Source of the DNA: Zanthoxylum bungeanum
Taxonomy: Eukaryota > Streptophyta > Magnoliopsida > Sapindales > Rutaceae
Direction: 5' to 3'
Length of the DNA: 64,000 nucleotides
Assembly: GCA_019454045.1 (NCBI GenBank)
Contig: SKCR01038866.1
Coordinates: 186,001 to 250,000, forward strand
Shown piece by piece: positions 11,311 through 60,933 of the stretch. The first letter of the stretch is position 1. Each line of letters starts with the position of its first letter. The position numbers and the translations under genes are program-made. The notes below the pieces were generated by a model, which had not been told where the DNA came from, made no database searches, and saw only the letters and a list, made by a program, of their open reading frames with translations.

Positions 11311-11370
11311 AGATTAATAAGTTGGATAAGGTTTTATGGTTAGATTCTCAATCAGACCATTATTAACCTA

Positions 11371-13492: not shown

Positions 13493-13505
13493 GCTCTGAC
13501 CCCCA
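13493..13505 (-). other. Primer binding site of Copia-B (mutated)
   Basis: GCTCTGACCCCCA on the + strand corresponds to GCTCTGATACCA, the reverse complement of the copia initiator-Met tRNA primer site TGGTATCAGAGC. It sits at the inner edge of the right LTR. Confidence 0.6.
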
Positions 13506-17384: not shown

Positions 17385-17895
17385 ATAAAAGTGCTACGTA
17401 TTTATAGTTTATATTTCACCAGTTTGCAGAGTATACATGTTGAAGAATCATGTTTTCACGAGTTAAGCACGCATATTTTCAGTTATGCTTTCCCGCCGCA
17501 TGTTTTTAGTTTACATTTTCAATTTACATTGGTACATTATATGAATACGATCTACATTTTTAGTTTGTGTGTTCCCATTTTAGAAGTACTGATTAAGAAA
17601 TCAGTTTGGACGATGTTCATTCCATGCCAATTCTAAAATAGGTAATGAATTTCGTAGCATTGTATGCATGAAGCAATACACATTTCATTTCTCCAGTTTA
17701 TATTTTTAATCTGCAATTCATGTTTACAGTTTTCAAGTTATGTTTTGCACATATCATGTTAACGTATTTGCAGTTTATGTTTTCATATTACAAGTCTACA
17801 GTTTATCTTTTCAGCTTGCATGTCATGTTTGAAAGTTTAAAGTCATGTTTCCCATGTATAATGTTCATGTTTAATGTTTTTTATTTGGGCGGATG
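17385..17895. other. Low-complexity CATGTTT/AGTTTA-rich stretch
   Basis: No gene is supported. The sequence is made of loosely repeated words such as CAGTTTATGTTTT, CATGTTT and AGTTTACATTT. It lies between the truncated Copia-B LTR and an inverted LTR fragment. Short open frames here follow from the repeated words. Confidence 0.45.
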
Positions 17896-18690: not shown

Positions 18691-19578
18691 TGTTGGAGTT
18701 GGTGCTTGGAGCGCCAATCCGAATAATATATTATACATTATTTTTTATTATTTATTAATAAAATAACTACATTTTCATTTTAACCTTATTAATGGAAATG
18801 TCATTTCCCATATTAGATTGATATATATAAATGTGCTAAGAATGACTTCGACCTTAGAATAGTATGTAGTAATACTAGAAATTGAGTGGTTCGACATTGG
18901 GATAGGATTATTGTTATAAACTATTCTTAAAGTAAATATTCATAGTCATTGGTTTTGGAATACGATCTAATTCCTATAACCTAAAAGACTAGCACATGTC
19001 GTATATTGAAATTAGAATTCCAATGGTTTAACCCGATGTACCATGAGCAAAAGAAGCTCGTATAGAAATGTGGGTATTCTTTGAAGCGAATACTGAATGA
19101 CTCACAAGTGATTCCTAATAGTTGAAAGTACACACTACCGTCAATAGGAATCTACTCGAGTCGAGTAGCATATGTGATCCTTTGACTATAGGATATCATA
19201 GATTTTGTGTGTGATCCTCAACAGTTTGATGCCATATATGTCAGAGACCTTTCATGGTTTGACCGCTAGAAGTTCGTTAGGATTGGACCAATACACTTGT
19301 TAATCAAGTGTGTATCAAGATAGGATCCATCGGCGCATATGTGTACTATAAGGGGTTTAGGTATCCATGTGAGTAAGTCATAATTCCTAAGACTTTGGCC
19401 AAAGCCGATCACCTAGGGTGGATCGCATATATCAGAAATGGTTTTCTGATTAGTTATAAAGAATCATGGACATGTCGACATGAGAGGTGCGCCTCGGAAA
19501 CTTGACGGTGTAATCTATGTTTCCTAAGCACAACTCAGATAGCCTACGACATGGGGATTGTTAAATATATGTGATATC
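18691..19578 (+). repeat. Copia-F LTR, first part
   Basis: It contains blocks found inverted in the Copia-B LTR: target words such as TACCATGAGC, ATGTCGTATAT, GTCACTCACAAGTGATTCC-like and ACCTTTGATGGCA-like segments. It ends at the ATATC duplicated by Copia-E (19574-19578). Confidence 0.65.
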
Positions 19579-20599
19579 TGTTGGGGTCAAATCAGGGAGG
19601 TGCATCAGAAGAAGCGCTGTTCGGGCGAAATCATAGTTTAAAATTTTTAAACTTACGAATAAATTATTCAATATCAAATATTAATAATTCATTCATATTT
19701 CACCTAAACATATTATTTGTTGATATCATATAACGAAATAAATAATATAGAAACATCGCGAAACTTTTGCGAAAATATTTTTTCGTAAAATAGCATAAAA
19801 CGCGTTTCTGGCCAAACCGACCGACCAATTCTCATGGGGACTGCCCGGTCGCCCAGACCAAAACATTTGGACAGTTCGTGGGCTGCCCGAACAGTGTCCA
19901 GTTCACTGTTTGGGCAGCCGTTACCCGTTAACGCCGTTTTTCTCTCTCGTTTTTCACTCCGAAATAATTTCCGACAAATATTTTCTTGGGCAATTAAAAT
20001 AAACCAATTTATTCTATTACTCAAAAATAAAAAATGAATTTTTTATCTGAAAAATCAGATTTATCATTAATTGCTATGAGACCCTACACTTTGTAAATTA
20101 ATCATTTTGGTCATTAAATTGTCAAATACATATTTAATTGATTTCAAATCAATCCCAAAATAATTTATACAATTTGCAACAAAACCAGAAACTTTTCCTG
20201 AATTCCGAAATTGCCCAGATATTTCCAGAATTATGAAAACAGCCCAGATTTTGTATTAATTATAATTTGGCCCAATTTGTTCAAAACACTCAAGATCAAA
20301 TCCAATCAATCCCAAATTTGACATACATCAAATATACATCAAATTATATCATATATATGAAAAGCCCCAAAATTTGAATGGGTTAAGAACCCTAATTTCA
20401 CAAATTACTCAAATTGGACAATTTACATTAAATTGAAAAAAATCAACACTTTAATCATCCAATTACCACACCAACCAAGTCTCACCATCATGAAATTAAT
20501 CAAGAACAATTCTAGGTTAATTATGAATGGCTAATTACTCTAAAATAACAACTTAATTTTCTAATTAATTTATTAAGCTTTAATCATACATGCATAACA
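19579..20599 (-). repeat. Copia-E left LTR, outer part
   Basis: It matches 48922-49980 nearly throughout, including the GGCCAAACCGACCGACCAAT block, the GACTGCCC block and the AATTGCCCAGAT block. It stops at GCATAACA, where the Copia-D LTR TGTTGGGAAGC begins. Open frames in it on both strands are not conserved between the two LTR copies and have no domain. Confidence 0.8.
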
Positions 20600-23170: not shown

Positions 23171-24129
23171 TAAGAGCATCAGGTCTTGTACATATCATGA
23201 CGTACAAGAAATACAACAGCACTCCCACTACTTTTCCTGTAAACACAAGGCTCGTCTACATTTTTGATGAAGTCAAATTCTTTGATTGTCTCATCAAATC
23301 GTATATTCCAACTTCTGGAGGCTTGCTTGAGTCTATAAATGGATCGTTTAAGCTTGCATACTTTATTATGATCATCCTTAGATGCAAACCCCTCAAGTTG
23401 TGTCATATAGACTTCCTCTACGAGGTTCCCATTAAGGAAAGCTGTTTTGACATCCATCTGCCAAATCTCATAATCAAAGTGTGCAGCTAGTGCCAGTAAA
23501 ATTCGAATGGACTTTATCATTGCAACAAGCGAGAAGGTTTCATCATAGTCAATTCCTTGGATTTGTCTATAACCTTTCGCCACCAACCTAGCCTTATAGG
23601 TTTGGATGTTGCCTTCTGCATTAGTTTTACGCTTGTAAATCCACTTGCACCTTATGGGTTTTATCCTTTCAGGTGCATCTACCAAGTCCCAGACTTGATT
23701 CTGATACATAGAGTCTATTTCGGATTTCATGGCCTCAAGCCACTTGACTGAATCAATGTCACACATTGCTTTGTCATAACTGGTGGAATCGTCATTATCA
23801 ATGACCTGATCATGTTCCTCATCAATATGGAAACCATATCTTTCGGGCTCATGTCTTTCCCTACCAGACATTCTAAGTTCATAACCTTGTAGTTTTTTTG
23901 TCGCTGCCTTTTTGAAGGGCCTGGGGTTTTGTTCTATGTTAGTTTTTTCTTCTCGTACCTCATCGAGGTGAAGTCTACACCCACTATATTTCTTGAGAAG
24001 GAATTCATTCTCTAGAAATTTAGCATTTCGTGAGACAAATGTTCTTTGTTCATTTGGGACGTAGAACACGTATGTTATTAAGTTCAAGGCATATCCTACA
24101 AATTTACATTTAACTGCATTATCATCCAA
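23171..24129 (-). pseudogene. Reverse transcriptase of Copia-D1 with catalytic-site deletion
   Basis: A 316-codon frame carries the pol linker and RT: SVKWLEAMKSEIDSMYQN, then QVWDLVDAPE, KARLVAKGY, GIDYDETFSLVAMIKSIR, WQMDVKTAFLNG and IYRLKQASRSWN. It ends soon after AVVFLV. The segment with the YVDD catalytic box and about 100 following codons is missing. The sequence then jumps to the ITSRYQANPS block near 23130-23160. The RT is therefore inactive despite its long open frame. Confidence 0.85.
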
Positions 24130-24700
24130 TTTGTTAGTTTGTGTGAGCTTGGCATATGCGTCACATCCCCAAACTCTTAGATAACTAAGACTAGGACGTT
24201 TCCCAGACCATAACTCATATGATGTTTGACTAACAGTCTTAGAATGAACTTGGTTTAGTAGTAGTATTGCAGTTTCTAAAGCAAGACCCCAAAATGAAGA
24301 GGTAGATCCGTGTCTGGCATCATTGATCAGACCATATCTAATAATATCCGATTTCTACTTTCGGAGACCCCATTATGCTGTGGAGTTCCCATAGGAGTCC
24401 ACTGGGAAACAATGACATTTTCTCTCAAGTAATCTTGAAATTCGTTGCTTAAGTATTCACCACCTCGATCAGACCTTAGTGACTTAATACTTTTATTAAG
24501 CTGGTTTTCTACTTCAGCCTTGAAGTCTTTGAATTTCTCAAAGGCTTCAGATTTGTACCGCATAAGGTACACATACCCATATCGCGAATGATCATCGATA
24601 AAGGTATTGAAGTAGGAGAATCCACCTCTAGCGGTGACTGACATTGGTCCGCATACATCAGAGTGTATGAGTTCTAATGTCTCCGCTGCACGCTGTCATT
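24130..24700 (-). pseudogene. Integrase of Copia-D1
   Basis: Frame 24327-24644 reads FSYFNTFIDDHSRYGYVYLM, then LRSDRGGEYLSNEF and SQWTPMGTPQHNGVSESRN. The Asp-Asp-Glu acidic residues of the core fall in these blocks as far as can be judged. The C-terminal part (24130-24320) is in other frames and includes an LLLNQVHSKT-like block. A stop in the CESC-like zinc region near 24740 further disrupts it. Confidence 0.8.
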
Positions 24701-25590
24701 TACCTTTGAAGGGTAATTTGGTCATTTTACTAAGTAAACAAGACTCACAACTTTAATAAGGTTTATATTTGAAGAGTTTGAAATACCCATCCTTATGTAG
24801 CTTAGTTAATCTTGTTTCATTGATATGACCTAAGCGACTGTGCCATAGAAGTGATTCATTGAGATTATTCGAGTTAACGTTGTATATATTAGAGGTTGAA
24901 CATTATTTGTTAGTTTGTAAGACATAGATACCATTATTCAAAATACCATATCTATATTTTATTTCATTGAATGAATAGAACATTCATTACAACGTATTAG
25001 ACATGAAAAGCCTTTATTACATAAAGAATAAATTGAAATGATGTTCTTTACTAGAGAAGGTACATAAACACAATCTTCTAAGTCTAAAACTAAACCATTC
25101 GGAAAAAATAATGAATAAGTCACCACGCACAATGCAGCCAATTTTGCTCTATCACCCATGCGTAAGTCAACCTCCCCATGACGGAGTCTCCTACTATTTC
25201 ATAGGCCATGCACATTGTTACACAAGTGAGTCCCACAACCGGTGTCAAGCACCCAAGTAGAAGGTTCAGAGTTTTGAGAATATAGTTCAATCATATACAA
25301 CATACCTGAAGCATTGGGCTTCTTGGCCTGTTGGGCTTCCCTAGCTTCATTGGCTTTCAAGGATCTGCAGTCTTTCTTCCAATGACCCTTTTTCCACAAA
25401 AGAAACATTTCCCATTTCCTTTTTCTCTTCTCCACCTTACCATTGGGCTTTAGGTGATCTGGAGCCTTGGCCTTGCCCTTATTTTTCTTTGGGCCTCTTG
25501 GCTTCAGGTCCGTACCCGTAAGCATGACAGAGGTTTTAAGCTCCCGTTTCAGGTCCTTCTCTGCTTGCTTTATCAGATTGTGTAATTCCT
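24701..25590 (-). pseudogene. gag C-terminus, protease and pre-integrase of Copia-D1
   Basis: Frame 25199-25525 holds a basic linker, a damaged zinc knuckle (FLLWKKGHWKKDC, the first Cys pair lost) and the protease start STWVLDTGCGTHLCN with an intact DTG-type triad (Asp-Thr-Gly). The GAG-pre-integrase block (LLWHSRLGHI) is near 24830-24860. The gag is cut at about 25590, where the sequence changes to a hAT transposase. Confidence 0.75.
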
Positions 25591-30202: not shown

Positions 30203-30934
30203 TGTAGGAGTTTCAATCAAGTCCCAAGGATCACAAACATGCATAAAAACGAATAGAATACAACCAAGGAGTAAGGCGGAATTCATACTCACATTGATGG
30301 GTTTTGATGAAATGAAACAAAGACCAAAAAAACACACTGCATGTTGCTCCCTGACAGTGATCTGCGAATGGTAGGGGCTGCACGGTGGTGGGGTGTCTTC
30401 CTCCTTGTTCATTCGGCCATGGATGTCACCATTGAAGCTCCAAGATTCAAGCTTTTCCATGCTCACAAATTCGTTTCCCTATCACCTATGTATAACCCAA
30501 GGTGTGCTAACACTACTTCATCTTCTTTGATTCTCCATTTGATTCGGTCATACCAGAAATTTTGAGGAGAAAAAACGGTTCAAAACCGTGAGAAGAGAAG
30601 AAAGAAAAGAGGGGGAAGAAGAAATGCGGTAAAGAGAAGAGTGGAGAGTGAGAGAAAAAGAAATGTAATTAGGTTTTTATATTTTCTAAAATTAATTAAA
30701 AACCATTTACATTTCTTTTAACTTTCCATTTACCAAAAGTCAAAAAGTAAAAGCAAAAGTTGCTTTTTCAACTTCTACATCAATCACTCAAATCAAGTGA
30801 CAACATGTCACATCACTCAAAGTGACATTTGATTTGACGCTTGATGGGACTTGCGATTTGACGCACGATTTGACTTGCGTGCCGCACTCGAATTCGAAAT
30901 GCGAATGCGCTCGCAAATAATCCCGGGCTCGGGT

Positions 30935-31275
30935 TCGCTAATTCCAAATTAACGAATTTTCGTCGCGTCGTGATTAAATGATTACGCCTAGCGAAATCAC
31001 TATTCACGTCGCTAACGAATTAATTCTAAATTAATTCGTTCGCCCGAATTAAAATCCAATTTTAATTCCGCGTCGAAATCCAGTTTCGATTAATATATCG
31101 AATATATTAATTTTTAAACGATTATTCCAAATTAATCGTTCTCTCTCTTTAACGATATTTTATCCGAGATAAATATCTCCGTAATTAATCCCAGATTAAT
31201 TTTCTCTCTCTTCCAATTAATCCCAGATTAATTTTCTCTCTCTTCCAATTAATCCCAGATTAATTAAAGTGCGAG
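30935..31275. repeat. Serial short hairpins in the Copia-C LTR
   Basis: Consecutive inverted repeats include AACGAATTAATT/AATTAATTCGTT around CTA, GAATTAAAAT/ATTTTAATTC, TCGAAA/TTTCGA around TCCAG, TAATATAT/ATATATTA, and three tandem AATTAATC/GATTAATT units around CCA. The solo LTR has ATTGAAA/TTTCAAT where this LTR has TCGAAA/TTTCGA, which keeps the pairing. The AATTAATCCCAGATTAATT unit varies in number: about 5 in the solo LTR, 3 here, 2 in the right LTR. Confidence 0.8.
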
Positions 31276-31684
31276 TCATACGTCATCGGTGAATCTTCAG
31301 GAAGCGACCCATGAGATCTCCGGATATGTTGGCAGTAAATACGGTCGTCGGATTATCCGAACACGTAAGTACCTCTCTTACTACGTTTATACCGATTTAC
31401 AAGACAAGGTTGGCTTCTAGCAAAGCGCCATGCCTACCCAATTCTCCAGAAATATTCTTACAGGAATATATAGATCTGTATCAAGCGTAGTATACCGTAG
31501 TATTGTGTATATCGGCCCAGTATCGGATAGTCACGTGCTAGGGCTGGGGCTGGATAAGTGTCTGCCCCGTCCGAAGCACATGTCGGATGTCTGTTAACTA
31601 GTCTCTATAATCGGATATACATGACCTTGTCATAATATCTCGATGGCCGGCCAGCACTTAAGAGCACTAATACCGTATCCTGCG

Positions 31685-33066
31685 TAGGGGTGAGCAAAAC
31701 CGGTTTCGGTTCCGGTCCGCATAGAAACGGAACCTACCCGGAAAAATTCGGTTCCGCACTAAGTGGAACCGGAACCTACCCAATTAAACAGGGTACCCTA
31801 TTATTCGGTTCCAATTCGGTTCCGGTCCGGTTCTGGTCCGATTCCGAATTACCCTATTGACACATTATGAATCTGTCAAAACAGATTTACAAAATTATCT
31901 GTCAAAAGAAAAGGTTGTCCAAAACAGGTTACTGCTTTTAATTATAGCTAGTTAATGTTAATATGAAAAACAGGTTACTGCTTGCTCATTTATAAATCCC
32001 AAGGCAGAAAAAATCTTTCCACAAACACAATGCACTGAATGCAGTACATCAAATGAGAATCCTGTAATCTTGGAAAGTGAAACCCCGTCAAAATTTCTAC
32101 AATCCAATTGAAGAAGGGCTTAGAAAATTGATTGTATTGTTACCATTCAAAAGCAAGCTGCCAGGCAAGCTTGCTTTTGAATGGTAACAATACAATTTTC
32201 ATTCAACAATTTTGTCCTAACTGGGTATGAAATCTGCCAAGCAAGCCTAACATAGTTACATTCATTCAGTTCGAATTTGAAATAAGCCAGTCAGCAATTT
32301 GCTTAGAACCTTCCACAATATACTAAATCATGTATTCATCTTACAATCATAATTAGTTTATGATAATATGGGGGAACAAAGAAAATTAAATAATCAAATC
32401 AAACACATAGTCAGTCAATTTACAAAATAATAATTATAATAACTATAAAAATAACAGAATTTTACTTAACTATTTCACCAGACTGTAACGCTACATGCAC
32501 AGATCAAGAAACTTGGAAGTGGGAAAAGCTTACTTCTGTGATTGCAGGCGCAGCTTTGATTCGAAGCCTATGAAGCGATCGAACTGGTGAGAACTGAGAA
32601 ACTGCTGTGAGATTGTGAAATCAGATTTAGGGATTTAGTAATTACGGTTGCTGGCCAAAATCAACTTGCTGTTGCTTTTAGATTGAGAGTTTGAGACTTA
32701 AGTTTTCGTATTTTAGATTTAGGGTTGGGTTTCTACTTTCTTACTTGCTGTGCCGCCTGTCACTTTTGTTGTTTTTGTATAATGATTGAAAAAGAAGACG
32801 ACATTTTGCCCTAAATGTGACGAAATCGGTTATATAAACGGGTATTAGAATCGGTATTTAATCCGGTTTTGAAATACGGTTTCGGTTCCGGTTCTCTGGT
32901 CCGGTTCCGGTTCCGATTATTTTGGAACCGGAACCGGACCGGTTACACCGGTTCCTTATTTTTGGAACCGGACCGGACCGGTTACAACCGGTTCCGGTTC
33001 CAAACCCGGATTTTCGGTCCGGTTCCAACCGGTTCCGGGTAGACCCGGAACCGATGCTCACCCCTA
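31685..33066. mobile_element. Non-autonomous hAT-like element with 8-bp target duplication
   Basis: Perfect 12-bp terminal inverted repeats TAGGGGTGAGCA and TGCTCACCCCTA are flanked by ATCCTGCG on both sides (31677-31684 and 33067-33074). The right LTR of the same Copia-C has a single ATCCTGCG at the same place (about 41188-41195), which is the empty site. Subterminal regions are packed with GGTTCCGG/CCGGAACC words. No transposase is encoded. The same subterminal words occur in the hAT remnant at 26488-26620, a possible source of transposase for this family. Confidence 0.93.
32131..32196. repeat. 29-bp perfect inverted repeat with 8-nt loop
   Basis: The arms 32131-32159 and 32168-32196 are exact reverse complements; the left arm begins ATTGTATTGTTACC and ends AAGCAAGCT. 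The loop is GCCAGGCA. It lies inside the hAT-like element. The perfect arms and short loop suggest a recent template switch or a precursor-like RNA hairpin. Confidence 0.9.
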
Positions 33067-33711
33067 ATCCTGCGTGACATCATCTCCACTATAACTGAAG
33101 TGATACTTCCATCTCGACATCACACCCAATACACTACGACTCTCTGATAACCCAGAAGCGGTGTACGCAGAGCCGGTTAAAGCCCTGTACCACCAAGACC
33201 AAAGTCTACCGATTATCGCAAGTATTAGCGATGCAAGTCTCAGGTTAAGACTATACACACACCTACCTTGATTTCGGCCTCCCATAGACACATAGTCATA
33301 ATACAATGGGATTCCGAGGGGTCTATCCAGAGCGAAGCTGTTTCCCGTACCATCGGTGAAACACGACCTCCTATCGCACTTGCATAAGTATCAATACTTA
33401 AATATATGAGAACTATGCCGGTGTGCCCTCACAACGCGCACAAGTGCAATACTAGCCTATTCCGCATTATCGATGTCCTGTCTCGATAATACTCCGGCTA
33501 GGGATATTTAATGATTAATCCTTCGTGGACTGATACTGTCTCATATCATCTCAATCCAGGAACTAATCATATGGACCTCTCTTCATTTATACATATATGG
33601 TGATCTAATCACAAATGATGAGAGTGCAATTTCCTTGTCACATAGTTAATTTGTACAACAACACACCGTGATCTGTACAAATAGTGACGCTATGGGTCAT
33701 ATTATCCAACA

Positions 33712-36700
33712 ATCTCCCACTTGGCACATAGCCAGTCACTCGAGTGTCTAACACCCGAACTATGTACGGTTCGCTCAAATTACTGAGAGAAAGGTTTTCG
33801 TCAGCGGATTTGCGTAATTATCTTTTGACGCGATTTATACGATCATCACATCGCCACGATGTATGATCCGAACGAATCAGATAAATATAGAAGTATATAT
33901 CTGGATCGTCGATGAGACCTTTAATTCCTTAGCCTGTGCTGACGCCTAGCTCAGCTGCTAAAAGAACTATATCTAATCTAATTAGATTTATTATCGATCC
34001 AAATGGCTTCTATTGCTGCCTCAGCTGCAGCAATAATCCGCATTTGTTGTTGATTCGGTAACAGTTATCTTGCTCGGAATATTTCCAGCTTACTGTCCCG
34101 TTATTCAAACTTTATAGTACCGCAGTATTTACCGGTTTGGAAACTTGCAGCAGTGATCCTAGTCACTTCAAGTTCTCCTACTCCATAATTTAAGACAGCA
34201 TCTTTAGTTCTCTAAGATACTAATAGATGTCCTTAACTTCAACTTCAATCCAATGACTATCACTTGGATTGTCCTGATTGTGACTCCATATGCTCAAAGC
34301 GCATGAGACACCATATCAAGTACATTTTAAATGTACAATTTCCCAGAGAGTGTTAACAACTCCAAATCTATCCAGTAGATCTTTATTCCTTGAATAAAGG
34401 TTGTTACTCCCCAGAATTCTACGGAGAATTTCTTATGAAAGCCAAGCTTTCACCGATTGCTTTATGGGAATTTCATTTCCAAGAAATGACATATTATCAT
34501 TATTTTATATGACATTCATGTCAGTGCACTCCCACTAACCCTTTTATATACACAAGAATCATTTCGTTTTGAATAAATCATACTCTCCATTATGATTACA
34601 TCAAAACGATAATTCCTAGAACCTATGCTTGCTTCAATCCAAACATGGATCGAATAACCTGCAAACCTTGTTTGCTTGTTATGGTACGATAAAACCGACA
34701 GGATGTTATAAACATCCTCCGAAAGGTTTCCTTTTCAGGAAAGCGATTTTCCGTTAAGCTGTCATATTTCATAAATGAAATACACAGCTTTAGCAAGCAT
34801 TATCCAAATGGATTTACAATGGCAACAGGTAAAAGGTTTCGTCGGAATCAACACAATGTTGATAACTCTACCTTTTCTTTACAAGCCTAGCTTAGTACGT
34901 TGGTATGTTGCCTTCCATGTATGTCTTCCTTGAAGACATTTAATGTACCAATAGGCACAATGCCTTGTGGTACAACAACTAGTATCCAAAATAGTTGTTA
35001 TACATGGAATCCATTTCGGATTCATGGCACTTTGCCATAATAGGGAGTCGATACCTCGTATCACTTCCTCAAACGTAGTCGGTGGATATACCTTCATAAG
35101 ATTGACACTCTTTATGAGGTTAGATCAGAAACTCATACCCCAGGTTGTTTTCTGACTCTATCCGATCTACGAGTTCTTGTGTATTTGAAGATTAATGGTA
35201 TAGATTCATCATTGATGAACTATTTATGTTCCATTAGGAATAGGTGCCTTGAATAGTATTACTCTATTACTTTATTCTCGATTTTCACGAGTTTACTATC
35301 CCACTGACCACTGCATGTCTGTATTCCTCTCAGGAAAACCGCATGGTGAGCAACAATCTAATTGTTCTCATGTGAGATTATAAGTACTATACTTATGGTT
35401 TCCCTTAGGATAACATATATTGGCACTTATCCATTTTGGGTCCTTAGTTTGGTATCATCCAAACGTTATGCCTGGCATACCCAAATTATCAGGAATGAGA
35501 AACCCGGTTCTTTCCCGTTCATATCTAATATGTAATCTGTCAAACAGATTATTATGGAACCTTATTCTAAATAAGTTATTGCACTGTTAAAACTTATCCG
35601 TTGAAGGAAATAGTAGCTCAGAGCGACTCATGATTAGCCTTATCATGTCTAACATGATTCGGTTAATCCGTTCGGAAACACCGTCACTTTGACGTGTTCC
35701 GTGAGGAGTCCTCATTTGAAAGAATACTATACTCTTTCAAGTATATAAGAAACTTATTGCTTAAGTATTTTCCATTACGGTCTTACCGTGACGGTATAAT
35801 ACTATAGCCGATCTGTTTGTCTATTTCGTGTCGAAACTCTAAAAGTTTCTGATTTGTGTTCTTCAAAAGAAACACATAACCATAACGTGATGCCACATCC
35901 GTTAAGGTCACGAAATATTCATGTTCACATCTAGCCTAGCTAGATATGGGCCCACTAACTTCACCATGAATAGGGCTAACAGATCGGTGGCTCTTACACT
36001 ATTACCAAGTAAATAGTGTTTTAGGTACTTTACCTAACAAACTAGATTCGTAGACTTTATTTGAATAGTCAAATCAGTCCTAGTACCCACTCTTCAAAAG
36101 TGTGGATATACGAGTCTCGTTAATTGTGTCCTAGACAACAATGCCACAAATAAGTCTATTGATCAAATCAATTTGAGCTATTTATTTGTCATTTTATATG
36201 TTTGAGATTTTATTTATTCAAAATATAAATTCTGTTATTTACATCTAATGTATTTATCTCAGTATCATCTTTATATAATAAAACACTTAGTGTTCTAGAA
36301 TATAAAGGTTTATCCGCAACGGTTAAACACTGATATAGAGATAATGTCTCTAGTCAAACTAGTTACATTATAACAGTTCCTAATTTAAGTACACACCCGA
36401 AGGGTAGTTCCTAAACTTAGGTATCTACGGTCGAAACAGCGACTTTCGTCCCGTTTCCGATTCGCAGAGCAATCTCAGCTTGAAGTCAGTATCCTGCTCA
36501 AAGCAGATTCTGAACATCAATACATATATTTTATGTACCACACTAAGTATTTAAAATCTAATTTCAATACTAGCTGTGAACATAACTAAGACAAACATTT
36601 TCAAAGTAAGAGCCTTGCCCTTTCTTTAATTCCTTCGTGTCTGCCATATCCAAATGGTAGTCACTTTGGGATATGTCAATTATCCTTTTCAATATTTCAG

Positions 36701-36980
36701 AAACCTTAGGCCAAGCCTTGGGTTTTTAGAATATCGAAACGATTTGCACCTCGTGCTACATGCCCAATTGCAAACTTTGACTTTATCTCCTCTAGAATAG
36801 TCAATTAATTCTCCAAGAATTATAAATTGCAATTTTAATACTTCTTAAATCTAAAATTAGATTTATGACAAGTATATTAAATTAAGCATTAAAGTCATCA
36901 TCACATAAATCTTCCAAAGATTTTATGCTCTACTTATTTTGCTTAATTTTGGGCTTAAGGTATAATAAGTTATTTTATCA
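33712..36980 (-). pseudogene. Pol-derived region of Copia-C, reduced to a chain of hairpins
   Basis: It is colinear with copia pol at the DNA level. Near 34000-34030 TATTGCTGCCTCAGCTGCAGCAATAAT corresponds to the AEYIAASEA block of D1. Near 34525-34620 CTCCCACTAACCC and the following words correspond to the RT part of B and D1. No open frame survives. The sequence is packed with short inverted repeats, mostly 5-8 bp arms around CTT, CTA or CAA, for example CTTTATTC/GAATAAAG (34381-34399), ATGTCTTC/GAAGACAT (34921-34939) and TAATCTGT/ACAGATTA (35533-35551). Confidence 0.75.
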
Positions 36981-37420
36981 AATAAGGTAACCTATTATTT
37001 ATTCCCAATTTGAAAATTAAATCATTTAAATATTTTAATCCCAGATTATATTTTAAATATCCAACTTTTCAATTTTATCTTGATTACAATAGTCCAACTA
37101 TTTAATCAACGATTAGTGGTACTATATTATAATGATTATAATAGTCCAACTATATAATCAAATATAATCCAAATTAATTAACCTCAATTACATTGATTAC
37201 TATAATCCAATTATAAAATCAACTGTAAACTGAAATTAATTAATTCAAATATATTGATTAATATAATCCAATTATATATAATCAAGTATAATACAGTCCA
37301 ACTGTTTATTAAAACAACAATTTAAATATTAGTCTAACTAACATTTAATCTAATGACGAAATAATTTAAATGAGCGCGTATGGCGAGTAATTGAACGAGT
37401 ATTGCAAATTCAATTCTTGC
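36981..37420 (-). other. Copia-C gag-to-leader region with TCCAA-loop hairpins
   Basis: No frame is seen. Repeated units of the type GATTA...ATAGTCCAACTAT...TAATCA occur at about 37081, 37134, 37195 and 37256, and ACAGTCCAACTGT near 37293-37305. The arms differ from unit to unit while the TCCAA centre is kept. Confidence 0.65.
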
Positions 37421-39722
37421 CTCCCACTATTTTTCGTCGAGCCTCTAACCCTCTGTCGAGTACTCGGGAAACCGTGTTTCCTAGTGGGCTAGGATCCCGT
37501 TAAATATCACACAATCTTGACTTTGGCCAACAAATTGTATGATAATTAACTAGGTAGATCTCGAAGATCAATTGGATCTCATCCAACTCCTAGATCCAGT
37601 AGGTGGACATCCAAGTCCCAAACATATATCTTATATATGCCTATACATCGAATGTATACCCTAACCTTTTTCCTCTGAATCAACTAGGCCTTGGCTTTGG
37701 CACAACAAACCTAGTGATCCCAGTCAAGCGCGGACCCATTGACATGGAAGCTTCGTAATCAATGTCAATGGACAAGAAGTGGTCTTGACTTTGGCCAACA
37801 AACCACAACTTGGACACGACACCGATATGGAACAAAGCCTCGTGATTAAAACACATCTTCGACGGACAAGGGCTTGACTTTGGCCAACAACCCCTGCCAA
37901 TCTCGGATCTTGAGTAAGAATCACTCAATGGAAGGAAAATAAACGCTTGATATTTAACGAGGTTTTTCGCGTGCAAATTGGCTACCAATTTTATTATCTT
38001 TGTTAAGGTCTCATCATCATACACCCTTAAACATGCATTCTAAACACATAATAAAGCGCATATGTAAAATAATAATGATGCGGATGGATATTTTACATTG
38101 ATCCTAGATCAAATCTCTCACTTTCTCTCTCCCGCTAGCACAAATATTTCTTCTACCCGTTACACTACACTTCTAAAGAAACCTCATATACATAGAGGGG
38201 AATAGGTGAGAAGAGAATACAAAGAATAGGAGATAAGGCTGGACTCGCAGGTCCAATTAATAAATCAAATTTATTACAATTTCCAAAATCGCCCCACCCA
38301 GCTAATATCCATCCGATATACATTATTCAAACATCACAACCATGTATTCATACAAGCATGTTATCAATCAATCAATCAAATTAATTAATCTTGATAATTA
38401 GTGATCATCCAATGTTCAAACAAAGATTTGATTTTGTTCGAGTCAAACTCGTATTGCGAACACGTACTCAAAGTACGATTTCTACGAATTAAATTAAATT
38501 ACATAATTAAATCCAATTAAATACGCATTTAATTCTAATTCATTATTTAATTCCAAATTAAATATTACACTTTATAAAATAAACCTTTACGACTTAAATT
38601 CCAAATTTAATCGTTACGGGTCTCAAAGCCCGATTAATATCCAATATTAATTTAATTAAAGTCCAATGGGCTTTTAATTAATTTCTTGAGGCGTGGACTT
38701 TTGGTCAACTCGGGTCAAACCCGCAACCAAAGTCCAATCCGGGAGTTACCAATTTTGGCCCATTAGGCCCAATTAAACGTTAAAGGTTCATTAGTCGCAT
38801 TTGGGCCTTTTGGAAGCGGTTTTGGGCCTAATTGGATCCAACCAATTTTGGCCTAAACCAACTTTGTACAACAAAGTCCAATAAACCCAATAACAACTTT
38901 AAAAGCCCAAATCCAATTTTAAGCCCAATAATTTAATTCCAAAAATTCCAAATTTTCAAATTAAATTACCTAAAGTGTATAGCATTATTAATTGCCCAAA
39001 TCAAAGTTTCCAAAACATCAAATTTGTCCAATTAATCATGCTTAACATCAATAATCATGTCCAACATAATTGATCAAAATCAAACCCAATTAATACATGC
39101 TAAAGTCTCGGCCAAAGGGGAAAAATATGCCCAAATCAAATTCAATCCAATTGAACCCAATCAAACATAAATTCAACATCCCCAAATGATTTCAAGTCAT
39201 CCAATGAACAAAAAATCAAAAAACCAAGACATTAGGGCACTTGCAAATTCGGCCATCACAAGCAAATTGGGGAAAAATTGTTCCAAACACTTTTCATCAA
39301 ATTGATCTAATCAATCATCAATTAAACAACATTCAAGCATTCTAAATCATCCAATTTCATTAAACATGCTCAAAATCAAGTTTACCCAAATTTGTCATGC
39401 CCAAAATTTGGGGAAAAATGGATCCAACCAAATTTCATGAAATTGATTATGCACAACATCAATTCAACCTCATTCAAGCATACTATACTAAACAATTTAA
39501 TCATTTGATGCTCAAATTGAGTTTACCCAAATTAAAGTTTTGGCCAACATTAAGCAAATTGGGGAAAATCAATCCAATTAATTTTTCATCAAATTGATTA
39601 CATATAACTCTAATTTAATCATATACAAGCATTCTTAAACAAACAATTTGTCAAAATCATGCTTAAATCAAAAAGCCCCAAATTTTGCTCAAGAACCCTA
39701 AATCGTTTTTATGCAACCAATA
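37421..39722 (-). other. 5' leader of Copia-C
   Basis: This is non-coding. Four hairpins between 37511 and 37896 show a common loop (CTTGACTTTGGCCAACAA or a variant) on different stems. From about 38000 to the primer site it matches the leader of the C-type element at 62186-63656, with the block CATACACCCTTAAACATGCATTC and the CTCTCTCCCGCTAGCAC block. The rest is A+T rich with GCCCAA-type words. The long open frame at 37680-38024 spans the hairpins and has no domain. Confidence 0.7.
37511..37896. repeat. Four leader hairpins sharing one loop sequence
   Basis: Stems are ACAAT/ATTGT (37511-37515, 37534-37538), ACTAGG/CCTAGT (37683-37688, 37710-37715), GTGGT/ACCAC (37779-37783, 37802-37806) and AGGG/CCCT (37869-37872, 37892-37895). 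The enclosed loops read CTTGACTTTGGCCAACAA three times and a CTTGGCTTTGGCACAACAA variant once. The loop is kept while the stem sequence changes, as expected of a selected RNA structure. Confidence 0.8.
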
Positions 39723-39735
39723 GCTCAAGATACCA
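39723..39735 (-). other. Primer binding site of Copia-C
   Basis: GCTCAAGATACCA on the + strand resembles GCTCTGATACCA, the reverse complement of the initiator-Met tRNA primer site, with a one-base insertion and changes in the middle. It directly precedes the LTR start TGTAGAG. Confidence 0.65.
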
Positions 39736-39736
39736 T

Positions 39737-41832
39737 TGTAGAGTTTCAATCAAGTCCCAAGGATCACAAACATGCATAAAAACGAATAGAATACAACCAA
39801 GGAGTAAGGCGGAATTCATACTCACATTGATGGGTTTTGATGAAATGAAACAAAGACCAAAAAACGCACTGCATGTTGCTCCCTGGCAGTGAGCTGCGAA
39901 TGGTAGGGGCTGCACGGTGGTGGGGTGTCTTCCTCCTTGTTCATTCGGCCATGGATGTCACCATTGAAGCTCCAAGCTTCAAGCTTTTCCATGCTCACAA
40001 ATTCGTTTCCCTATTACCTATGTATAACCCAAGGTGTGCTAGCACTACTTCTCATCTTCTTTGATTCTCCATTTGATTCGGTCATACCAGAAATTTTGAG
40101 GAGAAAAAACGGTTCGAAACCGTGAGAAGAGAAGAAAGAAAGGGGGGAAAAAGAAATGCGTAAAAGAGAAGAGTGGAGAGTGAGAGAAAAAGAAATGTAA
40201 TTAGGTTTTTATATTTTCCAAAATTAATTAAAAACCATTTACTTTCTTTTAACTTTCCATTTACCAAAAGTCAAAAAGTAAAAGCAAAAGTTGCTTTTTC
40301 AACTTCTACATCAATCACTCAAATCAAGTGACAACATGTCACATCACTCAAAGTGACATTTGATTTGACGCTTGATGTGACTTGCGATTTGACGCACGAT
40401 TTGACTTGCGTGCCGCACTCGAATTCGAAATGCGAATGCGCTCGCAAATAATCCCGGGCTCGGGTTCGCTAATTCCAAATTAACGAATTTTCCGTCGCGT
40501 CGTAATTAAATGATTACGCCTAGCGAAATCACTATTCACGTCGCTAACGAATTAATTCTAAATTAATTCGTTCGCCCGAATTAAAATCCAATTTTAATTC
40601 CGCGTCGAAATCCAGTTCGATTAATATATCGAATATATTAATTTTACCGATTAATTCCAAATTAATCGTTCTCTCTCTTTAACGATATTTTATCCGAGAT
40701 AAAATATCTCCGTAATTAATCCCAGATTAATTTTCTCTCTCTTTAATAATTAATCTCTCAGAATTAATCCCAGATTAATTAAAGTGCGAGTCATACGTCA
40801 TCGGTGAATCTTCAGGAAGCGACCCATGAGATCTCCGGATATGTTGGCAGTAAATACGGTCGTCGGATTATCCGAACACGTAAGTACCTCGTACTACGTT
40901 TATACCGATTTACAAGACAAGGTTGGCTTCTAGCAAAGCGCCATGCCTACCCAATTCTCCAGAAATATTCTTACAGGAATATATAGATCTGTATCAAGCG
41001 TAGTATACCGTAGTATTGTGTATATCGGCCCAGTATCGGATAGTCACGTGCTAGGGCTGGGGCTGGATAAGTGTCTGCCCCGTCCGAAGCACATGTCGGA
41101 TGTCTGGTAACTAGTCTCTATAATCGGATATACATGACCTTGTCATAATATCTCGATGGCCGGCCAGCACTTAAGAGCACTATACCGTATCCTGCGTGAC
41201 ATCATCTCCACTATAACTGAAGATACTTCTTCCGTCTCGACATCACACCCAATACACTACGACTCTCTGATAAACCCAGAAGCGGTGTACGCAGAGCCGG
41301 TTAAAGCCTGTACCACCAAGACCAAAGTCTACCGATTATCGCAAGTATTAGCGATGCAAGTCTCAGGTTAAGACTATACACACCTACCTTGATTTCGGCC
41401 TCCCATAGACACATAGTCATAATACCAATGGGATTCCGAGGGGTCTATCCAGAGCGAAGCTGTTTCCCGTACCATCGGTGAAACACGACCTCCTATCGCA
41501 CTTGCATAAGTATCCAATACTTAAATATATGAGAACTATGCCGGTGTGCCCTCACAACGCGCACAAGTGCAATACTAGCCTATTCCGCATTATCGATGTC
41601 CTGTCTCGATAATACTCCGGCTAGGGATATTTAATGATTAATCCTTCGTGGACTGATACTGTCTCATATCATCTCAATCCAGGAACTAATCATATAGACC
41701 TCTCTTCATTTATACATATATGGTGATCTAATCACAAATGATGAGAGTGCAATTTCCTTGTCACATAGTTAATTTGTACAACAACACCGTGATCTGTACA
41801 AATAGTGACGCTATGGGTCATATTATCCAACA
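39737..41832 (-). repeat. 5' LTR of Copia-C
   Basis: It matches 30203-33711 (without the hAT element) with few differences and holds the empty hAT site near 41188. Short open frames on both strands in both LTRs are parallel because the LTRs are near-identical, not because they are genes. Confidence 0.9.
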
Positions 41833-44903: not shown

Positions 44904-47900
44904 ATTTCTCCCACTTGCTATAGTGTCATTCCATGGTATCATATACACATCCCGATGTGTATCACCTACTCATGGCCCTCAAGAACTCACCTAGCGCTCA
45001 AGAGGTAGGTAACAACAAGTACGCCCGCTATGACAGATTGAGTTTATCCAACAAACACAATTTTTTTCCTTAGCTAGCATCATTCATATTTTTGTAGAAA
45101 CTAAGTTCTACATCAATATGACTCAGATGCCATATCAACATTGTGCTTCAGCTACTAAGTTGTCTAAGTATTTAAGCATCAAATCTAAAATACTATGTAG
45201 ACAACCGCAAACACAACACTAATACCAAACTTCTAATATACAAGGTCACGGTGCAACTTCATAAGTCGATACTTCATAAGTTGCAATTAACTCCACTCTC
45301 ATAGTGGAATCATATGTGACACTCCCACTACATCTTTTCTGACTCTTTATGACGTAGACTGTCTAACGTCATAATTAGACTCAAAACTAATCTGACCCTA
45401 ATGGTTGCGGATTTATTCTCCATTAATAAGAAACGTGTTCTTAATATCTCAAAGATAATAAAGAACATGTTTCAAGACCCATCTTATGGTCTAGAGGATA
45501 TCAAAATAACTCGTAACAGTTACGATTAAATTGATATCTCTAATCGTACTTAATATAGTATTCATTATGCCATCATTCTATGATGCATAAAATTGACTAG
45601 ACATTTTAATCAATTTCTTTTTCGACAAAAGAAATCATCATTTACGAAAGATGAATATATATACATTAGACACACTAATTGTCAAACAGTTATACTAACA
45701 GTCATACAAATATTCTCAATGTGTCCTTTATTAGATCATATCTAATGCACGACTAATGAGAGTATCTCACAAGTCTCTTAGTTTTATATCATATATAAAA
45801 CTTTATATCGAATATAATAGAGAGACCACTCCCACTGCTTTCACGGAGAAAATAAAACCCAGGTAAACCTTTTACCTCATAAACATCTCATTATTACCTT
45901 AATAATGATAATGTCATTATGATGTAAAATACTACAAAGAAATTTGTACGCTCCCACTAACCCTTCTATCTCATATGTATTCTCTATACTTTGATAAAAT
46001 CAGACAATGTGACTGATATCAAAATTAGAAAACACAAATTTCCAAAAAGCTCATCCGAGTCTACAATAGGCTCTATAAGCTAATATACTAAATTGTAATC
46101 TTAGCATAATACAAACTACATGGCCATTCCAAAACGAACTCTTCAAACTAAGAAATCACAATGGATCTCTTATTTGAAGAAACCATTCAGAAATGCCACT
46201 TTGTATTCATTAGCTAAAATGTACAATTTAATATCATCATTAACCAACAGATCTTAAATTATTCAATCAGTGCGACTAGAGACAAGTTTCCTCAGAATCT
46301 ATAATAGATTGCTGAGTATAACTTTTCTCACTGTCATACTATAAAGGTCAAACCTTTAATAAGCTCACTGTGCTTTTGTCGCGTAAACCATTTGCACATT
46401 TTATGAACGATTCCTAATGAAAGCTCAATCAAGTTCCAAACTTGATCGTAGTAAGCTATGAACAATCTAAGATCTATGGTCTAATGCTAATTTCCGGATT
46501 CGATATCAAATATCGCTCCCACTATAAGTTATAGGATAATTTTCTTCAATAAGAAAACAACAGAACCATTAAGTATCAAATACTTTGCAAATGATTTTGT
46601 TATCCTATTGAACTTATTTGGAAGTAATAAAAGGGTATTTTTATCTAATTAATTATGTAGTTCCATTTATAGTTTATCACTGTATTTGACTTCAATAAGT
46701 CAAGTATTTTCTACAATAATCAACATCCAATGTTACATACTAAGTAATAAATAATTTTATTACTCGAGATCGTAGAAAAGATATTCTATCAAATAGAATA
46801 CAATATTCTATTAAATAAAATAAATGATAAACTTCTACTCGTACCTCTGAGGCGCAAGTAATATCAATTATATAACAATTATACAAAAGATAGATTTAAA
46901 TCTCAAACATTTCAAGATTCGAATTTTCTACTTATACATATCATATATGTAACTGTAGAAACCAATGGAATATTAATTAAAATGATGAATTAGTGTTACT
47001 GGAGCATATCCCAAAGAGTATTAAAACTAATTCGGTAACTCTCAATATCAAACGAATCAAATCGCATAAGATTCAATTTCTTCCACTAACTAATTCCATC
47101 AATATGAAATCGTGGAAGAATAATATTGATGTAAGAATTATATTCTTCGAATAACCTTAGAAAAAATTACCCTAAATTCATATGTTTGATCGTATCAAAC
47201 ATCTTTGAACAATTCAAAGACTCACGATGAATTTTAACGATATAATTTTCAAAAACTTCAGATCAAATATCTTTGAACCAGTCAAAAGATTCTATCCGCA
47301 TTTCATCAGAAACACGTAACTAAGCCATGACAATTCATTGACTAAGTTACGAAGTAAAGAAAACTACCTTAAGCAATTTACAATTAATTAAATTACATAC
47401 ATCCAATGTATCAATTTAATAAATTTTATGTTTCAATGACAATCATTGGTTAAATGAGATTTAGTCACCTTCGCGAATACAATATTCGTTAAATGGATAA
47501 GGATATATGATGTGATCTCATATCAGACCATCCTTTACCATATGGAATAAACATCCAATACTTAAGTGATAAAATCTCATAAAATAATGTTCTAAGTTAT
47601 TTACTTAACCGGATATTTTTCTTAATGTTTATCTATTCGTTAATGACACTACTAGTCGATTTAAAATATGTAACAACTATTTAAAAAGAACAAGTAACTA
47701 TCGAATAGTCGCAAGTTCTGATATCAAATATCGAATCAATCATTCAACAATATTTTAAATAACTAGACGGAAGATCTGATATCCAATATCTACAGTTGTC
47801 GTATTGTGAAAATCAATATTTTCTATACACAACTATACCCATCTTCTTTCTTTAGCTTTATTATTTACTTTCAAATTATTTACATCATTTGCAAATAATC

Positions 47901-48230
47901 GAAAAATAAATAATGTCTGACACGTGACCTCTGATTGTCACTAATGCCAAGAAACGTCATTATTAGATAAACAAATACCTAATGGAGTTTTCTTAATGCC
48001 AGTGAAGAATCTCGAGACATGAACCAATTCATGTCAATCTTTACCGCATAAGAAACTATTATATCTAGAAGGATTATATCATTATATATTCTAATATAGA
48101 ACCTATTCTAGAAATCTGCTACCACAATTGAAGTCAGAAAATATATATAATATACATGCAGTGGATAAAAGTTTAATTCTATCAAAATAATAGAATAACT
48201 AACAACAAGAGCAATAATTTACATAATATT
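44904..48230 (-). pseudogene. Pol/gag-derived region of Copia-E, reduced to hairpin chains
   Basis: Colinearity with Copia-B pol is still visible at the DNA level. Near 45950-46110 GCTCCCACTAACCCTTCT and CAGACAATGTGACTGA correspond to the RT part of B at 9790-9890. No open frame over 60 codons remains. The region is filled with inverted repeats such as ATACACATC/GATGTGTAT (44943-44962), ATTTCTTTT/AAAAGAAAT (45613-45635), nested GATATCAA/TTGATATC around TCGTAAC/GTTACGA (45497-45538) and ATTAGAT/ATCTAAT (45730-45746). Confidence 0.7.
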
Positions 48231-48905
48231 ACACACCGCATAAGTTAAGGATTTTTAACCTAGTAGTGCCTCCCACTACTTTAAGTAAAACCGTAATCCC
48301 CAACGGAAATGAGAATTCAATAATTAAATTGAATTCCATAATGGGAAGTGGACCCATGAATATATTTCGACTCAGAGCTTTGGCACGTTCTCGCCTACGT
48401 ATATTCATTAGGTAGACAACTCATTATCAATCACACTCACTATGACTCCTTGGTTCGGTCCTGATCATTTCTTATTACGACAGCTTTGGCACGTCCACAA
48501 GGAGGTGTATCAAGGTTAAACTTGTCAATGAAAAACTCAAGCTACCGATGTAGTCCTAACAGCTTTGGCACGTTCAGGATTTCCACTTCACTTGAATTTG
48601 TCTCTTATCATATAAATTCTACCGTGCAAATGAACTACCTTCAACTATCACTGCACAGCTTTGGCACGTTACAACCATAGCATCATGAAAACATTTACAT
48701 CCGTATTGACAAGGCGAGCGAAGAAACAAGTATTCATAATACCAGTCACTTTCTTAAAACCTTATTTAAACGAGGATTTTCCAACAAAAGATGCTTTTAC
48801 TTTATTTAATCAAATTAAATAAACACATGCATGTATAAAAGTAATGATTAAATTAAACATTGAATTTTAAAGGGGTAATCATATCGGGTGTCCAGGATCA
48901 GACTC
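48231..48905 (-). other. 5' leader of Copia-E with repeated GCTTTGGCACGT hairpins
   Basis: AGCTTTGGCACGT occurs four times (near 48377, 48483, 48560 and 48657). The first is enclosed by ATGAATATA/TATATTCAT (48356-48364, 48400-48408), the second by CTCCTTG/CAAGGAG, the third by TCCTAAC/GTTCAGGA with one bulge. The leader aligns with that of Copia-B. A 64-codon open frame across it is not conserved in B and is not called a gene. Confidence 0.7.
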
Positions 48906-48917
48906 GCTCTGATACCA
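48906..48917 (-). other. Primer binding site of Copia-E (canonical)
   Basis: GCTCTGATACCA on the + strand is the exact reverse complement of TGGTATCAGAGC, the initiator-Met tRNA primer site of Ty1-copia elements. The LTR starts four bases later at 48922. Confidence 0.9.
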
Positions 48918-48921
48918 TTTT

Positions 48922-51730
48922 TGTTGGGGTCAAATCAGGGAGGCGCAGCAGAAGAAGCGTTGTTCAGGTGAAATCGTAGTTTAAAATTTTTAAACTTAAG
49001 AATAAATTATTCAAAATAAAATATTAATAATTCATTCATATTTCACCTAAAAATATTTATTCGATAGCATATAACGACATGAATAATATAGAAACATTGT
49101 GAAACTTTTGCGAAAACGTTTTTCCGCAAAATAGCATAAAATGTGTTTCTCGGCCGAACCGACCGACCAATGCTCATGGGGACTGCCCAGGTCAGCCCCA
49201 AAAACATTTGGACAGTTCATGGGCTGCCCGAACAGTGCCCAGTACACTGTTTGGGCAGCAGTTACCCGGTAACGCCGTTTTTCACCGTTTTCGCGTATTT
49301 TCACTCTGAAATAATTTCCGATAAATATTTTTCTTGGGCAATTAAAATAAACCAATTTATTCTAATTACTCAATAAATAAAAACTGAATTTTTTATCTGA
49401 AAAATCAAATTTGTCATTAATTGCTATGAGACCCATACACTTTGTAGATTAATCATTTTGGTCCTTAAATTATCAAATACATATTTAATTGATTCCAAAT
49501 CAATCCCAAAATAATTTATACAATTTGCAACAAAAGCCAGAAACTTTTCCTGAATTCCGAAACTGCCCAGATTTTTCCAGAATTATGAAAATAGCCCAGA
49601 TTTTGTATTAATTACAATTTGACCCAATTTATTCAAAACACATCAAGATCAAATCCAATCAATCCCAAATTTGACATACATCAAATATACATCAAATTAT
49701 ATCATATATATGAAAATCCCCAAAATTTGAATGGGTTAAGAACCCTAATTTCACAAATTACTTAAATTGGACAATTTACATTAAATTGACAAAATTCAAC
49801 ACTTTAATCATCCAATTACCACACCAACCAAGTCTCACCATCATGAAATTAATCAAGAACAATTCTAGGTTAATTATGAATGGCTAATTAACTCTAAAAT
49901 GTCAACTTTAATTTTCTAATTAATTTATTAAGCTTAATTACAATAATAAGCAAATAAATTAATCATACATGCATAACATCCTCAAACACGCTTCCAACAA
50001 ATTTAATTACAAATTCAAAAAGTAGAGAAACAAACTTAACAACACAATTTGAAGTTAAGAATAATAGAAACATTTTCTATATAGAAGAAAGTATAAGAAA
50101 CTTACAAAAATTCCAAATTTTTGGCTTTATTTATCTATCTTTCTTCAATTTTCTCTCAACTCACTTTGTAAAAACTTGTGTTGGTTTTGAAAAAATGAAA
50201 CAAAACCATTTTGTATCAATTTTCCTCCTTGGCCGAATTTCAACAAAAAATAATAATCAAATACTTTAATTTTTATTTCAATATTATTGGTACACATTTT
50301 GCTAAATATTTAGATAACATTTATCCATTCATAAAGCATACTAAAATGTGTTCCAATGGCAACATGCCATTTCCAAACTTAATAAAGTTAATCATGAAAT
50401 AAGATATTTGTTAATTTAATTATATTAATCATATAATATTTATATAATTAAATAATTAAATATAAATATCTTAAATATATGTATTATATTTACATTAAAT
50501 ATCTCAAATACATATATTAATGATATAAGTCAAATATCACAAATTGATATTTTATTAATGTGTATTTAATAAAATAAAGTATTAAATAAAATACACATTA
50601 ATTTTGGAAATGACCGTTAGGTCCCGATTGCATGTATTTTTCGTTTAACCGTTAAACGAGTTATAAATAATCAGTATTATTCATAACAGTTGCCCTAGTG
50701 CTCTACAAGTATATTTCATTAGTGAGACTCTCTAGATTCAGGCATATCCGTCACGAAATCCAATTTTGTGTCCATAATTCACCCACTCGTAAATTATGAC
50801 GACCACAGATAAACTCGCTAAATCATATAGGTCGAGGTCAATGCATACGTATAATCCCTCTGTCACAGGTATCCGGATTATCCCAGAGATATCGATATAA
50901 ACGTCAAATCTCAATAGGAATAATCCCGTCGACGTATCTATTAGCAATCTCTAAATAACATTCGGAACTCACTTTCGAAGTATACTTTGGCCATAGATTT
51001 AACAGATTGCTAATCACATGATGGACTGCCTATGCTCTGTACACAGAACTGACAGATCCTTTCTTGATATTCACAGGATATCATGAGCATGGGTCCACAC
51101 CCAACAAATAGATGGAGGTCTGATCTAAATAGATCGGTGACATGGCTGCCATCTAAGTGTGAATGATAAATCATATATCCACAGTGGTATCTCAAGTAAA
51201 AGAATCAATATACTACTCAACCCGAGAAGATTTCTATTGACGTTGGTGTACCATCTATTAGGAAATCTTTGGTGAGTCGTTCAATGTTTATCAAATAAAG
51301 ACCTACACGTCTATACGAGTCTCCTAAGACTAATGGTTCATTGGGATAAACCATCGGACCAAATTCGATATGCGACATGTACTAATCGCAGCGGATTTTA
51401 CTAACCGACCCGTGTCAGTAAATCTTGACCAGAAACTTAATTTAAGGATATATAATTTATAGTGACACTTCCCAATGTCAATTACAAGCTATGTTGTAAC
51501 TGCGCACTACGTTGTAAATTCTGGGGGTCTTTGCCTAATATATATACATATCACTAAACCAGATTTAGTTTCAATCTAATCATTCTAATCGAAATTAGAT
51601 CGAATATGTATATAAAAGACAAGAGGTGCTACCATTTAAATTAGTAATATTATGGAAAAATGTATTACTCGTATTCATGAATCAGACATAAATACGATGC
51701 AGATTGGCGCTCAGAGCTCCAACTCTAACA
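48922..51730 (-). repeat. 5' LTR of Copia-E (full length)
   Basis: TGTTGGGGTCAAATCAGG to CTCCAACTCTAACA, about 2.8 kb. The first kilobase matches 19579-20599 and the last kilobase aligns with the Copia-B LTR. The large size explains most of this otherwise gene-free stretch. A 5-bp duplication ATATC follows at 51731. Confidence 0.85.

Positions 51731-60929: not shown

Positions 60930-60933
<4 letters not shown>

Follow-up and report, generated by a model that had tools for sequence, protein, structure and literature searches.

Template switching that corrects quasi-palindromes is one route to near-perfect short hairpins. In plants, the RM boxes of Sireviruses repeat a single palindrome, built on a CGG-CCG core, in the LTR and the env-side regions in the extracts available of the papers that describe them (PMC2829016; PMC10760457); in the maize Sirevirus motif, CACCGGACNNNGTCCGGTG, arms of 8 bp enclose a 3-base centre (PMC10760457, extract). 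Dispersed stem-loops with a common loop motif guide the assembly of RNA viruses, as outlined in the accessible part of PMC6281560. Exposed guanosines are the binding targets of retroviral zinc knuckles; the MoMuLV protein, which has one knuckle, binds UCUG (PMC7599994, in the portion available). For LTR retrotransposons, the accessible portions of papers on Ty1 Gag (PMC8396678), Ty3 RNA (PMC11381356) and LTR structure (PMC3601003) describe no loop-defined arrays running the whole length of the element.

Here we analyse a stretch of 64,000 nucleotides of Zanthoxylum bungeanum DNA (the window), which contains several nested, mutually homologous retrotransposon blocks and a LOG-type gene at 61 kb. 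Every copy-to-copy comparison below is drawn from copies inside the window. Related Copia-type elements A, B, C, E and F carry hairpins, and a further copia family, D, has few; the labels A, C, E and F were coined for this analysis, while B and D1 are those of the initial annotation. Hairpins with a T-N-G loop in element sense and arms of at least 5 bp number 15 in B (7500–13600, minus strand), which retains open gag and RT pieces and has a CCHC zinc-knuckle motif (11931–11972, minus strand) with a stop inside it. There are 23 in A (13600–20590, minus strand), 21 in the minus-sense part of E (45348–51200, with its own pol relic at 45348–47705) and 10 in F (61900–64000, minus strand), which is homologous to the gag-side part of C. 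A block homologous to part of A lies inverted on the plus strand (51600–53700) and has 12. The LOG-like open frame (61025–61582) contains Lysine_decarbox and LDcluster4 domains; its named plant matches reach 42–53% identity and the best matches up to 79%. An array of 49 AT dinucleotides (60836–60931) is the source of a hairpin peak at 60 kb, and tandem repeats of 141 bp (39267–39533) and 62 bp (52402–52591) lie inside retrotransposon blocks. No relative was confirmed when viral contigs were searched with a D1 pol piece, an exact LTR hairpin word and a two-row RT alignment.

The hairpins noticed initially lie in element C. A PPT-like octamer, AGTGGGAG (33714–33721), followed by AT and then the TG of the LTR start, and a PBS-like sequence adjoining the 5′ LTR (39723–39735), which we take to resemble a copia PBS, together give its sense as the minus strand. 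The 5′ LTR (39737–41832, 13 T-N-G hairpins with arms of at least 5 bp) faces a 3′ LTR that is split into a distal piece (30203–31685, 10 such hairpins) and a proximal piece (33067–33711). Between the LTRs lie a 5′ internal, gag-side part (36500–39736), with 25 such hairpins against 0.72 in shuffles, no C-N-A loop and no listed ORF above 119 aa, and a pol relic (33790–36498) that keeps the order integrase to RNase H and has in-frame stops. The relic is supported by blastn and tblastn matches to 23.2–25.2, 9.6–11.3 and 28.3–29.0 kb. The initial annotation's view that the region is colinear with pol of D1 and B is borne out by minus-strand alignments of 34526–36498 to 23219–25195 in D1 (57.5% nucleotide identity, 2045 columns, E 6e-57) and of 34367–36048 to 9640–11315 in B (56.5%, 1740 columns, E 2e-32). 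Colinearity from integrase to RNase H with D1, which has RVT_2, and a position between LTRs place C in Ty1/copia.

We found no intact gag-pol frame in C: no ORF of at least 120 aa is listed in 33712–39736, and in minus-strand tblastn 8 of 10 pol pieces among the matches listed, some of them overlapping, contain stops. We therefore term C non-autonomous. Its LTRs are 96–98% identical, with 35 of 2097 aligned sites (<2%) different. Such near-identical LTRs around a dead pol mean that C most likely moved with its pol already dead, and it most likely took the proteins for that move from elsewhere. In the LTR comparison (30203–31685 with 39737–41197; 33067–33711 with 41189–41832) transversions (20) outnumber transitions (15), to which alignment shift may contribute; a tandem hairpin unit differs in copy number between the two LTRs, perhaps partly for the same reason. 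Inside hairpins 12 of 342 aligned bases differ and outside them 23 of 1755, several of these being shifted alignments in short repeats. The piece of about 1.4 kb that splits the 3′ LTR (31686–33066) is unmatched in the other LTR, has no T-N-G hairpin with arms of at least 5 bp and contains a near-perfect palindrome (32131–32196). An inverted repeat (33689–33699 and 33722–33732) flanks the PPT/LTR junction; the accessible text of PMC2829016 describes such a repeat in Sireviruses as well as in certain classic copia elements.

Sirevirus membership was considered for C and rejected, the Sirevirus PPT and the CGG-CCG motif core both being absent. The Sirevirus PPT octamer AGGGGGAG, of which several copies should precede the 3′ LTR, has no exact occurrence in the window, and among 56 hairpins of C only 2 contain CGG with CCG in their arms (list read by eye). 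A Sirevirus-type AT/TG attachment site after the PPT is present (AGTGGGAG-AT-TG).

Dense short hairpins were originally noticed in 33830–36380 (minus strand), the bulk of the dead pol of C, and they are real. Among three-base loops, this region has 37 hairpins with arms of at least 5 bp against a mean of 3.62 in 100 dinucleotide shuffles, 20 against 1.05 at 6 bp or more, 13 against 0.22 at 7 bp or more and 4 against 0.08 at 8 bp or more. With loops of 3–8 bases and arms of at least 7 bp the count is 17 against 1.24, so the initial estimate of about one chance 7-bp case holds for that loop range; three-base loops alone would give 0.22. The excess is greatest at loop length 3, and in C pol loops of 4–7 bases show a lesser excess, with 2–4 hairpins each (arms of at least 6 bp) against 0.8–1.0.

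The seven perfect hairpins quoted at the outset all lie exactly where they had been placed. On the minus strand, which is the sense of C, two have loop AAG and 8-bp arms (34381–34399 and 34921–34939), two have loop TAG and 7-bp arms (35380–35396 and 35929–35945), one has loop TTG and 8-bp arms (35533–35551), one has loop AAG and 7-bp arms (36021–36037) and one is nested, with an inner loop TTG (36341–36371). Another minus-strand hairpin with loop TAG and 7-bp arms is at 35642–35658. A further example, originally given as 34011–34033, is indeed a hairpin, but spans 34011–34035 with 9-bp arms and a 7-base loop.

The feature had been thought confined to pol. Instead, hairpins cover all of C, LTRs included, as well as its relatives A, B, E and F: the three-base-loop excess spans C and the blocks at 7.5–20.6, 45–53.7 and 62–64 kb. 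Hairpins are at or near chance in the blocks at 1–7, 42–45, 54–60 and 31.7–33 kb and in the LTR blocks of D, which served as controls, and they are sparse in family D. The density of T-N-G hairpins is 2.0 per kb in the pol of B, 5.9 in that of E and 6.2 in that of C, and their spacing is random (CV 0.96).

The loops follow a rule that has a strand. The CTT, CTA and CAA loops reported initially are present, but they are the antisense of AAG, TAG and TTG, and over the full length of the element the loop in sense reads T-N-G, most often TGG. We pooled perfect hairpins with arms of at least 5 bp over oriented blocks, in element sense, and compared them with 40 shuffles. T-N-G was found 149 times against 3.4 in shuffles, a number that does not stand for as many independent events since both LTRs of C are counted, LTR hairpin words are repeated in tandem and hairpins of common descent recur in homologous blocks; its mirror class, C-N-A, was found 4 times against 2.8. 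A-N-G reaches 30 against 3.5 and its mirror C-N-T 7 against 2.6, and smaller excesses are seen for T-N-A (24 against 6.3), T-N-T (19 against 6.8) and A-N-A (16 against 5.2). Counts for G-N-G, C-N-G and C-N-C are 9 against 2.6, 6 against 1.8 and 1 against 1.2. The G at the 3′ end of the loop counts most, and U at its 5′ end strengthens the effect. In 33770–36500 of C pol alone there are 17 T-N-G hairpins with arms of at least 5 bp against 0.20 in shuffles, and no C-N-A. Over 8123 bases of C, with arms of at least 4 bp, T-N-G occurs 74 times against 3.3 expected from composition, and C-N-A 2 times against 2.1. The closing pair in 56 hairpins of C is T-A in 41, C-G in 8, A-T in 5 and G-C in 2. 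The sequence Y-U-N-G presumably resembles a U-turn motif.

In the inverted A-homologous DNA at 51.6–53.7 kb the loops move to the plus strand (12 against 0). This is hard to square with DNA palindromes that serve as cis-regulatory boxes in the style of the Sirevirus motif, in which case the loop rule should not follow element orientation, as it does, and should be found on both strands. Palindrome-rich LTRs are a Sirevirus trait in the available part of PMC2829016, and the LTRs here do contain tandem copies of one hairpin word. However, the stems differ from one hairpin to the next, with no stem sequence common to them and the three-base loop as the shared feature, the arrays run through pol, and the stems tolerate G.T mismatches and not A.C (see below). 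We regard regulatory boxes as very unlikely.

Codon usage can be set aside as the cause in the open pieces of B. Among the six pieces, two of which overlap by 41 bases and two of which gave a Pfam family (gag or RT) among four scanned, there are 6 T-N-G hairpins with arms of at least 5 bp in 2085 bases; synonymous-codon shuffles give 0.45 on average, and none of 300 reaches 6. The open pieces of D show a slight excess (3 in 3312 bases against 0.40 in codon shuffles, P 0.007). The stems are AT-rich, as would be expected if base composition, codon usage or chance had made the hairpins, but dinucleotide shuffles, the mirror loop class, the other blocks of the window and the codon shuffles all fail to reproduce them, and we give this explanation practically no weight.

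If the hairpins are read as RNA, G.T and A.C mismatches should differ, since a G.T mismatch becomes A.C when the opposite strand is read and a strand-blind process could not distinguish the two. With the distal piece of the C 3′ LTR left out as a duplicate, stems of at least 7 pairs with one interior mismatch have G.T in 15 cases, A.C in 1 and another mismatch in 17 (P 0.003 against a share of 0.59); at 6 pairs or more the counts are 18, 4 and 22 (P 0.021), and a simpler count gives 12, 4 and 15. Mirror-class stems with one interior mismatch have one of each. As G.T is tolerated and A.C nearly absent, sense RNA appears to be the form in which the hairpins are read. Between homologous copies, 31 hairpins with flank identity of at least 0.6 show single changes to G.U in 8 cases, to A.C in 2 and to other mismatches in 14. 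Double changes number 8 against 1.9 expected, and 4 of the 8 are Watson-Crick. One hairpin persists in both B and E, where three of its pairs are compensated and the middle loop base has changed. A test for stronger conservation of the loop ends than of the middle base gives P 0.035, 0.073 or 0.67, depending on which of three filters is applied to the flanks. That the hairpins act at the RNA level is well supported. Folding energy does not separate the strands: MFE z-scores for C pol are −2.59 (sense) and −2.62 (antisense), with a control block at 31.7–33 kb as low. A search of 30000–54000 against Rfam 15 returned no match at gathering score.

How did the hairpins arise? According to the initial annotation, the arms had changed to match each other, possibly by repeated template switching inside hairpins. 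The first part is partly right, with the qualification that either arm is roughly as similar to the relatives as the surrounding sequence. Compared with B, the two arms of C hairpins have identities of 0.51 and 0.54 (outside, 0.53) and those of E hairpins 0.63 and 0.68 (outside, 0.55); for all 35 hairpins of C with any loop, compared with D1 and B, the arms give 0.51–0.52 and 0.55–0.56. A simulation of arm copying gives 0.59 for the ancestral arm and 0.37 for the replaced one, and no replaced arm of this kind is seen. Changes in C hairpin columns relative to B fall in the 5′ arm only (21), the 3′ arm only (18) or both (19). Template switching inside hairpins therefore found no support, and we rejected quasi-palindrome template-switch products as the source when the one-copied-arm test failed; with relatives this divergent, small numbers of such events are possible. 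Of the columns that form hairpins in C, 41% pair in B as well and 37% in D1; the random figure is 27%. With both arms changed and the columns partly paired in relatives, the hairpins most likely grew from partly paired sites by scattered substitutions in both arms. None of 15 positions is common to the pol hairpins of C and E (random 0.42), so the two arrays had separate origins under one loop rule, and 2 of 4 are common to B and E (random 0.10).

Mutation in place of selection would have reverse transcriptase, or another strand-specific copying process, perfect near-palindromes with T-N-G loops through template switching or biased changes. Strand specificity is compatible with reverse transcription, and most hairpins sit in dead pol regions. 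Retention of identical arms between copies is also near the neutral model (15 of 60 against 13.9), unless gapped cases are dropped, in which case 15 of 38 are retained against 9.3 expected (P 0.017). Set against this are the lack of a replaced arm, the balance of one-sided changes, the hairpin excess in open pieces of B, the little excess in LTR blocks of D, which are non-coding, and the scarcity of A.C beside G.T within stems. We consider a mutational origin unlikely, though slow, strand-specific, biased point mutation is a possible source of the hairpins.

Selection for a structured RNA, the other cause suggested originally, gained support from the loop classes (T-N-G 149, C-N-A 4), the stem mismatches (G.T 15, A.C 1) and the open pieces of B (6 against 0.45). 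We infer that selection on RNA structure, of whatever kind, probably built the hairpins. In the model that we put forward, the genomic (sense) RNA of A, B, C, E and F would carry dispersed short stem-loops with a stem free in sequence and a loop of three bases, U-N-G or the looser N-N-G, closed mostly by U-A or C-G. Selection at the RNA level would have made them through ordinary point substitutions. Coding would limit their number in B, where pieces are still open, and in C and E, with pol dead, their density is about 6–8 per kb. The loop G would be exposed, and its likeliest reader may be the CCHC zinc knuckle of Gag from an autonomous partner. RNA rich in such sites would then be gathered into particles, with non-autonomous elements as heavy users.

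Gag binding and packaging are favoured by analogy: the triloop ends in G on the sense strand, known knuckles bind guanosine, B has a CCHC motif, and viruses offer a parallel. Counting against Gag as reader, Ty1 Gag binds diverse RNAs at similar affinity in the available part of PMC8396678. Other points against the model are the near-neutral retention of arms, the dependence of loop-end conservation on the flank filter, the random spacing, the MFE z-scores, the weaker G.T bias in the simpler and looser counts, and the smaller excesses in other loop classes and in D. Taken whole, with selection on sense-RNA stem-loops, the Gag zinc knuckle as reader and packaging as the gain, the model is plausible but tentative. 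The same loop rule, mismatch bias, changes between copies and codon shuffles of B would serve equally if the stem-loops were selected for another reader (reverse transcriptase, integrase or an RNA-binding protein of the host) or another use (dimerisation of the RNA at its loops, or RNA stability). That alternative names no reader, and the 3′ loop G suits known zinc-knuckle binding, by analogy; we think it possible, if somewhat unlikely. Also doubtful, but worth stating, is the stronger form of Gag reading: a loop-based RNA assembly code in which on the order of a hundred U-N-G triloops per genomic RNA would be read by Gag nucleocapsid, and non-autonomous families, by converting their dead pol to packaging sites, would become competitors of the autonomous partner for particles.

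These arrays bear on which LTR-retrotransposon RNAs enter particles in plants and on the continued mobility of families with dead genes. They suggest that dead pol may remain under selection as RNA, which would alter the dating and annotation of such copies. If Gag does read the loops, non-autonomous families, free of coding, would compete with their autonomous partner for particles. A sense-oriented array makes for a cheap test, since sequence predicts which RNAs a Gag should prefer.

A literature search over the top 8–20 titles and abstracts for each query, with subscription papers mostly outside it, returned no description of T-N-G hairpin arrays. Quasi-palindrome correction should leave one arm replaced and impose no rule on the loop, and neither fits here. 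The nearest published plant case, going by the extracts available, is the Sirevirus RM box, which likewise is a short palindrome found many times over in Copia elements of plants; in contrast to RM boxes, the stems here differ, the loop is common and sense-oriented, and the arrays run through pol. Packaging signals of single-stranded RNA viruses resemble the arrays in being many dispersed stem-loops with a common loop motif and variable stems (PMC6281560, accessible part). Here, however, the carrier is a retrotransposon, the loop is a U-N-G triloop, and copies per kb are far more numerous, in a non-coding relic. Finally, by analogy, the arrays may share with retroviral packaging hairpins a G in the loop or linker, which in those hairpins is the contact of a CCHC knuckle (PMC7599994, portion available); whereas retroviral hairpins of this kind occur in small numbers close to the 5′ end, the hairpins described here occupy about 100 places along the element.
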